Source: Microbulbifer elongatus
GTDB taxonomy: Bacteria; Pseudomonadota; Gammaproteobacteria; Pseudomonadales; Cellvibrionaceae
NCBI RefSeq assembly: GCF_021165935.1
Contig: NZ_CP088953.1
Location: 4,132,501-4,196,500 of the forward strand
Direction: 5' to 3'
Length of the DNA stretch: 64,000 nucleotides
Shown here piece by piece: positions 7,562 through 61,928 of the stretch (position 1 is the stretch's first letter; each line of letters begins with the position of its first letter). A program made the position numbers and the translations under genes. A model generated the notes under the pieces. That model searched no databases, had not been told where the DNA came from, and saw only the letters and a program-made list of their open reading frames with translations.

Positions 7562-7673
7562 AGCACAGTGCAGGGATAAAGGTTTTGAAACTGTCGCAAA
7601 CAGGGACGTTTGCGACAGAGCGTACAGGGATGTATTCACAGCGGTTTCAAAACCTTTAGCCCTGTGCTGTGCT
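7562..7673 (+). repeat. Cloverleaf intergenic repeat, copy A
   Basis: The outer arms 7562-7591 and 7644-7673 pair over 30 bases with about three mismatches. Inside, CTGTCGCAAAC / GTTTGCGACAG (7591-7601, 7608-7618) forms a hairpin with loop AGGGAC. The unpaired part carries TACAGGGATGTATTCACAGCG, the signature shared by all eight copies. It belongs to subtype 2 (arms ending in TTTTGAAAC). Strand is given by the direction in which the core reads. Confidence 0.85.
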
Positions 7674-7714
7674 GCCACAGGACTAGCACCCTGGGCACAA
7701 CGGAAATATGGCGC

Positions 7715-7741
7715 GCAAACAAAAGCCGGCATAAAGCCGGC
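7715..7741 (-). terminator. Probable terminator downstream of ribA
   Basis: GCCGGC at 7725-7730 and again at 7736-7741 (a self-complementary hexamer) flank ATAAA and make a hairpin. On the minus strand it is followed by TTTTGTTT (complement of 7717-7724). It would end the riboflavin-region transcript about 240 bases after ribA. Confidence 0.65.
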
Positions 7742-7980
7742 CCTTATATCTTAGCGCTGGAGGTACATCACCTTTCTCGACCGCCAACGTTCAGATAACT
7801 TTGAGTATAGACACAATTCCTGAACACGCTGTCCCTGAGTGACTGATTGGCTCTTCCTGAGCGTTGCGCGTGCTCTGCATCTTGCTCACGTATAGATTGG
7901 CGTTTTCCCGTTGCCTTCCCGTGAAGGTTTTATGAAAGGTTTGTGACAGCGAAAACCGCTCGCAGTCACTGATTTCATCC

Positions 7981-8592
7981 TCACTCTTTCTCGGTGCCGT
8001 TCTCGTCGTCGAACAGGTGACCCAGTTTGCCCTTCTTGGTGGAGAGATAATTCACATTGTGCGGGTTGCGACCGGACTGGTGGGGCAGGCGCTCGCTGAC
8101 TTCCACACCCAGATCCTGCAGCGCCTTAACCTTGCGCGGGTTATTGGTCATCAGGCGGATGGACTGGATACCCAGGTGGTCGATCATCGGTTTGAGGATC
8201 GAGTAATCGCGCATATCTGCGCCAAACCCCAGCTGCTCGTTCGCCTCCACGGTATCGGCCCCCGCATCCTGAAGGTGATAGGCGCGGATCTTATTCAGCA
8301 GACCAATACCCCGACCTTCCTGGCGCAGATAGAAAATTACACCCCGTCCCTCGGTGGCGATACGGTGCATCGCATACTGCAGCTGGGCGCCGCAATCGCA
8401 GCGCAGAGAGAAGAGTCCGTCACCGGTCAGGCACTCGGAGTGAATACGGGCCAGTACCGGCGTGTCCGTATCCAGGTCGCCCATGCTCAGAACCACATGT
8501 TCCTTGCCGGTTTTCACTTCCTCGAAACCGTGCATATCAAACATGCCCCAGGAAGTCGGCAGTTTGCAGGACTCCACGTAACGAATGGTCAA
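7981..8592 (-). CDS. ribA: GTP cyclohydrolase II
   Basis: 203 residues from a TTG start at 8592. The enzyme opens GTP to the diaminopyrimidine precursor of riboflavin. Zinc ligands C54, C65 and C67 (HSECLTGDGLFSLRCDCG) and the catalytic stretch FYLRQEGRGIGLLNKI are intact, and RLMTNNPRKV follows. The TTG is preferred because it is preceded by GAGG at good spacing and aligns with the usual protein start (RYVESCKLPT); an in-frame ATG at 8637 would overlap the upstream gene by 14 bases. It is the last gene of the block. It supplies true cyclohydrolase activity that the RibBA fusion upstream appears to have lost. Confidence 0.95.
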   Translation of the reverse strand: MTIRYVESCKLPTSWGMFDMHGFEEVKTGKEHVVLSMGDLDTDTPVLARIHSECLTGDGLFSLRCDCGAQLQYAMHRIATEGRGVIFYLRQEGRGIGLLNKIRAYHLQDAGADTVEANEQLGFGADMRDYSILKPMIDHLGIQSIRLMTNNPRKVKALQDLGVEVSERLPHQSGRNPHNVNYLSTKKGKLGHLFDDENGTEKE

Positions 8593-8623
8593 ACTGATAC
8601 CTCGCGATCCATCAAAATCGTCA

Positions 8624-9265
8624 TCAATTGCGCGCACGGAGCAGCAACAGACCTTCCTGTTGCTGCATATCCACGCGGCTCAAAAAACTGTTGCCCAGCA
8701 GGGTCACCCGGGGGAAGTCACTGCCCAACACTGTCGCATCCACATTGTGCACGGTAATACCGCCGATGGTGACGCTGGCGAGATTCAGGCGATAGGCCTT
8801 TTCCACGCCACTGGCGGTGGAGACGGTCATCGGCCGCGCGCGGGCAAGATCCAGCCCCAGGCTTTTGGCGGTGGGGTAGTTAAACGCGATACTGGTCGCG
8901 CCGGTATCCACCATCACATTCACCCGCCGGCCATTGATCCAGGCGGTGGTACTGTAATGGCCGCGGCTGTCCGCATTCAGGCGCACTTCTGCCCGCTCTG
9001 CCTGCTGGTAATTCGCCGCCACCGGGGCGGCCAGGGTGAGCTTCTGCTCGCGCCCGTCGATCGACACCAGCGCGTATTCACTGGTGACTAAAACCAGTCT
9101 GACGCCTTCCGGTGAAGTCTTGCCGGACTTCAGCAACCGCCGCTTGCCGTCAATTTCGAACATGGCACTGGTGCCAAAAATCGCCTGCAGGCGCACGTCC
9201 TGTGCACCGCTCAGTAACGGCGTCATTAATAAAGCAATCGATACCACCAGATTACGCATTTTCAT
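8624..9265 (-). CDS. Retropepsin-like aspartic protease (clan AA), exported
   Basis: 213 residues with a signal peptide of about 21 residues (ALLMTPLLSGAQ). The C-terminal half is a single-lobe aspartic protease domain with catalytic D120 in MVDTGATS and the hydrophobic partner motif VTLLGNSFL near 195. Proteins of this type are dimeric and likely periplasmic or membrane-facing; their substrates are unknown. It sits between pgpA and ribA with short gaps, so it is probably co-transcribed with vitamin and lipid genes without an obvious functional link. Confidence 0.85.
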   Translation of the reverse strand: MKMRNLVVSIALLMTPLLSGAQDVRLQAIFGTSAMFEIDGKRRLLKSGKTSPEGVRLVLVTSEYALVSIDGREQKLTLAAPVAANYQQAERAEVRLNADSRGHYSTTAWINGRRVNVMVDTGATSIAFNYPTAKSLGLDLARARPMTVSTASGVEKAYRLNLASVTIGGITVHNVDATVLGSDFPRVTLLGNSFLSRVDMQQQEGLLLLRARN

Positions 9266-60198: not shown

Positions 60199-60213
60199 TA
60201 ACGTGTCTCCGCT

Positions 60214-60516
60214 TTAGCTGATAGGGTTGTGCACGGTCACCAGTTTGGTGCCGTCGGGGAAAGTGGCCTCAACCTGCACCTCATGGATCAGCTCTGCCAC
60301 CCCATCCATCACCTGATCGGCATTCAAAATTTCGCGGCCATACCCCATCAATTCCGCCACACTTTTACCATCCCGCGCGCCCTCGATAATTTCCATGGTG
60401 ATCAGTGCGACCGCTTCCGGGTAATTCAGCTTTAAACCTCGCGCCAGGCGTCTCTCGGCCAAAAGCGCAGCGGTAAATACCAGCAGCTTGTCTTTTTCTC
60501 TCGGCAGCAATTCCAT
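60214..60516 (-). CDS. ureA: Urease gamma subunit
   Basis: 100 residues. MELLPREKDKLLVFTAALLAERR, LNYPEAVALITMEIIEGARDGKSV and VEATFPDGTKLVTVHNPI cover the whole family length. It is the smallest structural subunit. An AAGG-type ribosome site lies upstream. Confidence 0.97.
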   Translation of the reverse strand: MELLPREKDKLLVFTAALLAERRLARGLKLNYPEAVALITMEIIEGARDGKSVAELMGYGREILNADQVMDGVAELIHEVQVEATFPDGTKLVTVHNPIS

Positions 60517-60552
60517 GGGTAAACCTTTTTAATACAATCTGCGATTCGCTAT

Positions 60553-61446
60553 TCAGGTGCGCCAGATACGCGGTGCGCAGGCCGGACGATCGAGTAGCTC
60601 CGGGCGAACAGTTTCCCAGAGTCTGGTCAGCAACCCCCGCACTTCAAACGCGCAGTGGCCGAGTACCCGCACCACAAAAATATTGGCCACCAGCGTAACG
60701 CCGCCGATGCAGCGTCTTTCTGAATCCGCCACCAGCGCCCGGCAATCCTCCAGCAGCTCTTCGGAAAAAATATTGGTAAATGGCCCCATCACCAGCAGCC
60801 CGTTCACCGGCAAGCTCCGCAGCCCCGCCGCCGCCCGCAAAATATTGTCACTATCACCACCTAGCCGTAGTGACTCCACCAGCAACGGCTTGCCTTCAAT
60901 GAAAATTTCCAGCCGCTGCAGCAACCGGCCACCGCTGAAATCCTCATCACAGGCGGGCAACCCCAGCGAGGTCACCTCCCATCCGACAAACCGCGCCCCG
61001 GCCTCCAGATCCACCCGCATGGTCATGGCACCATTGGCACCCGGGTAGGCAATATTCTCCAGCGGCAACCACTCCAGGCTGGCATCGCGCGCAACCCGCA
61101 AAAACGTGTTCTGACACTGCAGCAACGCATCCGGCCGCGCCCGATACACCCGCCCCGCACCGGTGGTCGTCACCAGCGCCTGCGCCCCTTCATCCACCGC
61201 CACCCGAATATCCAACTGATCCCCGGAAACCAGCCCACCGGGTGGATGCAACAAATACACATGAGCCAGATCCCGCCCCTCGGGAAAGAACGGCTTCTGA
61301 ACATACAAAGGCCCGCGGTGGTAGTTCCGCGCCAACCGACAGCCCCGCACCGTGCGCTCAAAACGCAACTCCAGATCCGCCTGCCAGCGGGTCGCACTGG
61401 TAGCGTCGGATATGTTGGCAATATCGGGAATAACGAGCTGATTCAT
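60553..61446 (-). CDS. ureD: Urease accessory protein UreD
   Basis: 297 residues from ATG at 61446 (a TTG precedes it in frame). Characteristic stretches are GPLYVQKPFFPEG, HVYLLHPPGGLVSGDQLDI, TTTGAGRVYRA and GRLLQRLEIF. It binds apo-urease and provides the nickel channel with UreF/UreG. It is the first gene of ureDABCEFG; the upstream 479-base region should hold the operon promoter. Confidence 0.95.
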   Translation of the reverse strand: MNQLVIPDIANISDATSATRWQADLELRFERTVRGCRLARNYHRGPLYVQKPFFPEGRDLAHVYLLHPPGGLVSGDQLDIRVAVDEGAQALVTTTGAGRVYRARPDALLQCQNTFLRVARDASLEWLPLENIAYPGANGAMTMRVDLEAGARFVGWEVTSLGLPACDEDFSGGRLLQRLEIFIEGKPLLVESLRLGGDSDNILRAAAGLRSLPVNGLLVMGPFTNIFSEELLEDCRALVADSERRCIGGVTLVANIFVVRVLGHCAFEVRGLLTRLWETVRPELLDRPACAPRIWRT

Positions 61447-61449
61447 CAA

Positions 61450-61928
61450 AAGCCGAGTGGCCCCTGGAGGCAGTTGCCACGAAATCTCTGGTTGGATTTG
61501 AGGACAATCAAAACAAGAATCCCCCGGAGGCGGAATGCGTCAATTGACGTAGTTCTGGTAGCGACGGAAAGTTGGCTTATCGCGGCCAGTTTGATGGCAG
61601 CCGACCGGGAAATGATGAACCGGTGGACGGAAAGGATTTAATGCAAGCTGTGGATAAGGTTCTGGCTGGCGAGAAGCCGAGTGAAGAGCAGACACCTTCT
61701 ATCGGCTGCAATATCAAGTGGAAGTAGCATTCGAATGACAGCGGTGAGGCGCACGAGTTGGAAAAAATAATACGGTAATCGAGAAGGCACTGATACCGGG
61801 GGCTGCCTCGCGAGACCTTCAAAAACAGGATGTTTTTGCAGAGCCCCCAGGGATGGGTTCACGGCGTGTCTCGCGAGGCAGCACCCGGTAGCAGTGCCCC
61901 CCCTTAACGAGAAAAGAACCCACGTGAG
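61450..61928. other. 479-base intergenic region upstream of ureD with a cloverleaf repeat
   Basis: It lies between the glutamine amidotransferase gene (ending leftward at 61929) and ureD. It holds repeat H (61786-61898). The part 61450-61785 contains no credible gene and presumably the urease promoter; I could not assign a sigma-54 or other defined site. Confidence 0.55.
61786..61898 (+). repeat. Cloverleaf intergenic repeat, copy H
   Basis: The arms 61786-61816 and 61868-61898 pair (CTGCCTCGCGAGAC / GTCTCGCGAGGCAG exact, outer GGCACTG / CAGTGCC). The inner hairpin, CTTCAAAAAC and GTTTTTGCAG, is imperfect, with the AGGAT-type loop. The core is CCCCCAGGGATGGGTTCACGGCGT. This is subtype 1. It lies upstream of the urease operon. 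Confidence 0.88.

Follow-up and report, generated by a model that had tools for sequence, protein, structure and literature searches.

The window analysed here, 64,000 nucleotides of the Microbulbifer elongatus genome (contig NZ_CP088953.1 of assembly GCF_021165935.1, forward-strand positions 4,132,501 to 4,196,500), contains eight dispersed copies of a cloverleaf element without genes. All eight copies proposed in the initial annotation, which was made from the sequence alone, were found, with their bounds refined and strands assigned (z, standard deviations relative to dinucleotide-shuffled sequences; the parts of the copy at 19649 are given separately):

7562..7673, + strand: cloverleaf element, z -11.9, 110 bits; GGA loops on the + strand, antisense to both flanking called genes
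11773..11883, - strand: cloverleaf element, z -12.0, 112.7 bits; codirectional with both flanking called genes, spacer occupied in 16 congener loci
13128..13254, - strand: cloverleaf element, z -9.1, 103.1 bits; insert within the 3' linker of hairpin B
19649..19762, + strand: cloverleaf element, z -13.4, 109.9 bits; antisense to both flanking called genes
19649..19679, + strand: left arm of the outer stem of this copy, 31 nt, complementary to the right arm at 97%
19680..19705, + strand: hairpin A of this copy, loop AGGGAC, closing pair C-G
19707..19729, + strand: hairpin B of this copy, with TGGA as its loop and TTCAC and GGC behind it
19732..19762, + strand: right arm of the outer stem of this copy, pairing with the left arm
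31477..31588, - strand: cloverleaf element, z -8.2, 109.3 bits; left member of an inverted pair with left ends facing and a 72-nt spacer
31661..31786, + strand: cloverleaf element, z -9.6, 93.9 bits; right member of the inverted pair, insert within the 3' linker of hairpin B
55803..55914, - strand: cloverleaf element, z -11.1, 116.5 bits; between convergent called genes, with paired arm and hairpin changes in the counterpart from the congener G024
61786..61898, + strand: cloverleaf element, z -11.3, 101.7 bits; antisense to both flanking called genes

The element is a 112-nt three-way junction in which a long outer stem encloses two inner hairpins, A and B, with GGA in both hairpin loops on the same strand in all eight window copies. 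Hairpin B is short (e.g., CCCA-TGGA-TGGG or TACA-GGGA-TGTA) and is directly followed by TTCAC. The shared plan outlined previously holds for the outer arms and the inner hairpin, but the supposedly unpaired core contains hairpin B and then TTCAC; the two subtypes described there are combinations rather than fixed classes, hairpin A having many sequence types genome-wide. When folded as DNA, the eight copies were 8.2 to 13.4 standard deviations below their dinucleotide shuffles (n = 200 each), and no shuffle folded as well. The suggestion that the arms covary was borne out by RNAalifold, which yielded 35 pairs for the eight copies, 23 of them with at least one double-sided compensatory change. 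In a set of 88 distinct copies drawn from many genera, both sides vary in 33 of the 35 pairs, a count tilted in favour of the structure by an alignment fitted to it; 94.4% of the cells pair, compared to 58.9% after shuffling, and the covariation score is 0.867, compared to 0.198 for the shuffled alignment and 0.10-0.14 for slid structures.

These eight copies are a small part of the family. When up to 3 mismatches are allowed, a 19-nt core pattern is found 159 times in the M. elongatus genome, compared to 2 occurrences of the reversed control, and the search of the whole genome with a covariance model (R1), the check proposed along with the initial annotation, produced at least 148 matches with E no higher than 1e-3. 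This number is a minimum, as 150 of the 711 first-look candidates were scored. The copies show a dispersed arrangement, in contrast to the cassette arrays of integron attC sites, and are distributed unevenly: the 250-kb intervals between 0.75 and 1.25 Mb hold 22 and 26 of them, those between 2.25 and 3.0 Mb 1-3; because the dense region adjoins the change in the sign of GC skew between about 0.71 and 0.84 Mb, they appear to be enriched towards the replication origin. The two replication strands hold 80 and 68 copies, respectively, and we claim no bias. All 20 pairs of neighbours less than 400 nt apart are inverted, 17 of them with the left ends facing and gaps of 41-94 nt.

Detailed analysis of this genome covers 112 of the 148 copies. 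Among the 111 copies for which placement was examined, 110 lie between genes called by a codon-usage script and one overlaps a call; relative to the element, the neighbours are both in the same orientation (++) in 45 cases, both in the opposite orientation (--) in 40, convergent in 21 and divergent in 4. The variable part of the stem, in the 101 copies where it could be cut out, is represented by 90 distinct 12-mers, and the arms are mostly unique, with hairpin A identical in up to 21 copies. The two closest copies are 94.6% alike, and the median similarity to the nearest neighbour is 87.5%. No promoter-like conserved block was seen at -70 to -23 of these copies. Many of them are accompanied, on both sides and in direct orientation, by ACGRAG at -25 to -20 and CTACGRAGC at about +15 of the stem, and an insert of about 36 nt (GGCCGAAGGCGCCGTGAA..GGCCGGGCCA) recurs in loop A, in several copies located at separate sites (766573 and 3862269 in this genome, and near 66384 in G024).

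Outside M. elongatus, where all counts are lower bounds, the R1 model detected no copies in two of 37 Microbulbifer genomes, 1-6 in nine, 11-64 in twelve and at least 65 in fourteen; in the other genomes of the order, a match was found in 4 of 21. A scan for exact pattern matches in genomes of named species returned at least 118 stretches, of which 80 were taken as loci, including those from Stenotrophomonas, Xanthomonas, Halomonas, Marinobacter, Alteromonas, Shewanella, Rheinheimera, Pseudomonas, Methylomicrobium and Microbulbifer, and 75 of the 80 were matched by R1 with E no higher than 0.01. Because the search pattern covered hairpin B, only hairpin A is unbiased in this set. A second model, R2, built from 89 copies (none from a record titled Enterobacterales, several from unclassified metagenome-assembled genomes), found the element in 74 of the 369 genomes sampled from the class, representing 66 of 272 genera, when 10 candidates were scored in each genome. 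Of 299 genomes drawn from the whole phylum, 19 matched, and all 19 are the M. elongatus genome itself or belong to the same genus, order or class. A clear copy was also observed in a record titled Bacillus subtilis SK7B5 (L143), outside the class by its title, which is likely a case of contamination or wrong labelling. In another genome, a tandem array (G609:C1:94414-95436) consists of five same-strand copies spaced at 227-229 bp, with an incomplete sixth after them.

Comparison of orthologous loci shows that the elements are gained and lost between species of Microbulbifer. The search for empty sites yielded one clean case: G024 carries an insert of some 165-175 nt in a spacer that is vacant in both the window and G031, while G066 has a truncated remnant there. 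No target duplication is evident at the G024 insert. The inverted pair at 31477/31661 is complete in G031, half present in G060 and absent in G024, G066 and G026, and the element at 7562 is absent from all five congeners compared. Remnants with internal deletions occur among the congener loci. At the 7562 site, G024 and G060 contain another folded repeat, with a AATGACATGGATGTCATT hairpin, in place of the cloverleaf.

The site at 11773 could be followed most widely, the spacer being cuttable in 29 of the 30 loci returned from 48 genomes. Of these 29 loci, 17 (M. elongatus included) are occupied by a copy in the same orientation, one retains a remnant and 11 have no copy. The arms vary between species and are mostly still complementary; three loci (L242, L249, L258) have another hairpin type, and L254 has mismatched, chimeric arms. 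The copies of M. elongatus and G024 are identical over 117 nt at this site, whereas at 4104867 the arms and hairpin A differ completely between the same two genomes. Orientation is reversed relative to G066 at 13128 and 19649 and relative to G024 at 4082330 (gene-internal false positives of the search pattern were left out of the G024 comparison). Either spacers have been re-used by independent insertions or their occupants have been exchanged.

Several smaller features accompany these loci. A linker insert, GGGGGCGCC(C/T)AGCTCG, is present in one and absent from the other of near-identical orthologues (L250 and L251; 55803 and its G024 counterpart), which suggests that pieces may be exchanged between copies. 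A further hairpin repeat with GGA loops, CCGCCATGGATGGCGG adjoining GCAGATTTTGCAGGAGCAAAAATCTGC, is found in congener spacers and within a G316 element (L263, L266, L312). Congener spacers L248, L257, L258 and L254 also hold GTAG-tagged inverted repeats resembling repetitive extragenic palindromic (REP) sequences; hence, the spacers collect several repeat families.

In two other genomes, the core resides within elements with transposon ends. In G316 it lies between terminal repeats CAGCAATTCCCARTTTG, for which there are 318 end matches and none for the reversed control. Among 29 distinct two-ended elements in this genome, the target duplication of 9-10 bp is exact in 21, has one mismatch in 5 and is lacking in 3; 7 end matches have no partner in range. 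In G384 the terminal repeats are different (NCAGGGCSGGAKCATACTTT), and the 8 two-ended elements are flanked by an 8-bp duplication that is exact in 5, has one mismatch in 2 and three mismatches in 1, with 6 end matches unpaired. All 37 two-ended elements contain the core, including 32 that were fetched by their ends alone (24 from G316 and 8 from G384). Such ends with duplications of fixed length are the mark of a cut-and-join (DDE-type) transposase acting in trans. The G384 end also borders a reading frame with a DDE_Tnp_1 match (30.5 bits), which we take to be ISAs1-like; no transposase was recognised in the six unpaired G316 loci examined as a source of the G316 end. A G384-type end with an 8-bp duplication was also found at the named-species locus L147, with none in mismatched-flank controls. 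At a second flagged locus, L103, the sequence resembles that of the stem. In G135 (L303-L305), near-identical cores are flanked by apparent inverted repeats some 38 nt long (..GAGGCCAGCAGCCTGTC..), which may represent a third type of end.

The stems themselves show a pronounced strand asymmetry. Mismatches were read on the GGA strand, after dropping stem positions with a fixed mismatch (19 in M. elongatus and 6 in the other species). In M. elongatus, G.T outnumbers A.C 50 to 10 (p 1.6e-7) and purine.purine outnumbers pyrimidine.pyrimidine 34 to 5; the respective values for the other species are 56 to 8 (p 5.6e-10) and 59 to 4. The unfiltered counts are 158 versus 13 in M. elongatus and 79 versus 8 in the other species. 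A strand-blind process predicts equal mismatch classes, and therefore the bias points to selection on the fold of one strand, which separates an element selected as one folded strand from a mere palindrome. The bias is found in copies antisense to both neighbours (G.T:A.C 15:0 and purine.purine:pyrimidine.pyrimidine 15:0) and in sense copies (24:4 and 11:1) of M. elongatus. In the other species, with positions unfiltered, the same two ratios are 21:1 and 22:0 for antisense, 23:3 and 17:0 for sense, 22:4 and 16:1 for convergent, and 2:0 and 5:3 for divergent copies. Thus, the fold of the GGA strand is preserved, apparently without need of neighbouring transcription, although the bias in antisense copies may partly stem from ancestors at other positions. 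GGA is located in or beside the loop in 107 of 111 (hairpin A) and 97 of 111 (hairpin B) M. elongatus copies and, outside the coverage of the search pattern, in the hairpin A loop of 64 of 73 copies from other species.

Taken together, these observations lead us to view the elements as high-copy, gene-less mobile DNA of the kind represented by the Yersinia palindromic sequence (YPAL/RU-2), moved in trans, with a core kept for the fold of one strand, a reading to which we assign a probability of roughly 0.8. The relation to YPAL, the high copy number, the intergenic placement and the gain and loss between species are established parts of it, and the initial proposal of a non-autonomous mobile palindrome fits copy numbers ranging from 0 to at least 65 within the genus, a clean filled and empty site, and terminal inverted repeats with target duplications in two other genomes. 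Under this reading, the Microbulbifer copies would be spread in trans by an enzyme encoded elsewhere, other than the REP-associated tyrosine transposase (RAYT); old copies would persist in tolerant spacers, decay by deletion or yield to other copies in either orientation. With the least certainty, the core might be kept because a protein recognises the folded single strand, be it single-stranded DNA or an RNA that does not come from neighbouring genes, and transposon-end pairs of differing kinds might have captured the same core.

Several results weigh against this reading. Most real copies in the approximately 200 kb compared with G024 are common to both genomes. None of the 112 M. elongatus copies has terminal repeats with target duplications, and their flanking direct repeats are no longer than those of the mismatched-flank control; because of this lack of ends and duplications and because the closest copies are only 94.6% alike, recent movement in this genome lacks support. 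No mobilising gene was found. Finally, the mismatch bias is weaker in the convergent copies of M. elongatus (10:4 and 6:3) and absent from the four divergent ones (1:2 and 2:1).

Going further, the three-way junction with its two CsrA-like GGA hairpins, read on one strand, might be an evolutionary unit in its own right within the Gammaproteobacteria that spreads in the YPAL manner, moves in either orientation between fixed docking sites in intergenic regions and, owing to a protein that recognises the folded single strand, has become the cargo of unrelated DDE-type miniature inverted-repeat transposable elements (MITEs); as a whole, this remains a tentative scheme that we consider possible but doubtful. 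The presence of the same core inside two unrelated types of transposon ends raises the question of what makes it worth carrying, and the copy-rich G316 and G384 genomes, together with nearly empty congeners, make the question of core function testable.

The most viable alternative is that the GGA hairpins would form a dual CsrA/RsmA-binding site in transcripts, with the copies kept as decoys or as controls located at mRNA ends. Both hairpins A and B display GGA in the loop, and paired GGA hairpins are the CsrA motif given in the part of the source available (PMC4333381). CsrA is present in 69 of the 74 element-bearing genomes of the class but also in 244 of the 295 element-free ones, so that the co-occurrence carries little information, and it was not found in five element-bearing genomes, one of them 98% complete. 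Moreover, copies located between tandem genes are sense and antisense in similar numbers (45 and 40 in M. elongatus, 22 and 21 in the other species), and antisense copies retain both loops intact as often as sense ones (38 of 40 and 41 of 45, respectively), have model scores that are no lower (p 0.91) and show an equally strong strand bias. Given that the orientation makes neighbouring transcripts poor candidates for carriers, binding of CsrA remains a rival only, and an unlikely one. More generally, function through neighbouring transcripts is not supported by orientation, mismatch asymmetry or integrity, and the bias in antisense copies speaks against the usual view of repeats acting via host mRNA. 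Accordingly, the structured RNA suggested in the initial annotation does not hold in the form of an RNA made from neighbouring transcripts, but the element may have an RNA role of another kind.

It is considerably less probable that the copies are functionless palindromes, with arms kept alike by template switching during replication and hairpins by gene conversion. This explanation would account for arms that differ in concert at some orthologous sites, for hairpin A sequences shared by up to 21 copies with mostly unique arms, and for identical linker inserts that come and go (L250 versus L251). It gives no reason to expect G.T to exceed A.C or purine.purine to exceed pyrimidine.pyrimidine, nor does it predict GGA loops that are conserved across genera despite varying stems.

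Least probable of all is REP/REPIN-like single-strand transposition by a RAYT (Y1_Tnp) enzyme, the REP-type transposase that the initial annotation had suggested looking for. The palindromic form, the recognition of one folded strand (as reflected in the mismatch asymmetry) and the inverted doublets, of which 17 of the 20 close pairs have their left ends facing, would be in its favour. Against it, the elements do not correlate with the presence of Y1_Tnp: three congeners lacking a Y1_Tnp match carry 50, 46 and 17 elements, and one congener with four matches has none. The two Y1 matches of M. elongatus are some 10 and 23 kb away from the closest listed element, no GTAG tag was seen at the conserved ends, replication strands show no bias (80 versus 68), and duplications in G316 and G384 are of the DDE type. 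A RAYT mobiliser is largely refuted (by G012, G021 and G035) unless the enzymes have since been lost.

Among known RNA families, the scan of the window against Rfam at the gathering score produced a single match, located away from the cloverleaf elements: 5_ureB_sRNA at 59416-59699 (+, 85.2 bits), antisense within the called gene 58136-59842 (-), which probably reflects a conserved urease coding region rather than an RNA, the identity of the gene being taken from the family name. Below the gathering score, the antisense strand of the elements matches RF02770 Ysr224 (Yersinia small RNA 224; best 32.1 bits, gathering score 70), the consensus of which resembles the antisense strand of RU-2. RF01731 TwoAYGGAY, a predicted CsrA-binding RNA, likewise has an outer stem that bears a pair of hairpins, their loops reading AYGGAY, but the match is only 20.6 bits (gathering score 43; E 0.87 in 321 nt); its nature as a mobile repeat is not mentioned in the portions of the literature on it that were available.

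The REP/BIME/REPIN repeats, as described in the available part of PMC2817692, resemble the elements in their high copy number, intergenic location, inverted doublets and complementary changes in the palindrome; the elements differ from them in being longer, in that the GTAG tag was not seen, and in having no link to RAYT. The DDE-type MITEs of G316 and G384 contain the same cloverleaf core, but the M. elongatus copies have no such ends.

The closest known relative is YPAL/RU-2, a repeat of 167-168 bp (PMC2759123, PMC2229807, PMC2847712) that, according to the available parts of these papers, lacks terminal inverted repeats, generates duplications of 3-26 bp and is known from Yersinia and Erwinia carotovora (PMC2229807), with 2 to 144 copies per Yersinia genome (PMC2847712). 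The RU-2 sequence as printed in PMC2759123 folds into the same core as the window elements. The R2 model detected an RU-2 homologue on an Escherichia coli plasmid (54.1 bits, E 8.1e-12) that shares 75% identity with RU-2 across 98%. It also found copies on plasmids of Enterobacter (two, inverted) and Pantoea (one), with E values from 1.5e-17 to 3.9e-8 for the enterobacterial plasmid matches; RU-2 itself matches 17 plasmid records, and the window copy at 55760-55960 had no blastn match in the phage or plasmid collections. As far as the available descriptions go, the two groups have in common a pair of GGA hairpins, a T-TAC-GGCG linker and the outer arms, as well as intergenic location, many copies and inverted repeats that are internal rather than terminal; filled and empty sites (one clean, others with altered spacers) are likewise found in the Microbulbifer family. 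YPAL/RU-2, of about 168 bp, has an open frame of 56 amino acids, and the cloverleaf insert in G024 is similar to it in length. The two differ in the sequences of arms, hairpins and ends, and the target duplications reported for YPAL were not detected in the flanks of the 112 M. elongatus copies. No account outside Yersinia and Erwinia was found in the open-licence literature, a weak negative because the original YPAL paper is outside that scope. Judging by sequence and predicted fold, the cloverleaf family comprises wider relatives of YPAL/RU-2; a published relative of these elements does exist, and the family reaches far beyond Yersinia. What was known as a speciality of Yersinia proves to be a family found across the Gammaproteobacteria, with a very clean record of covariation.

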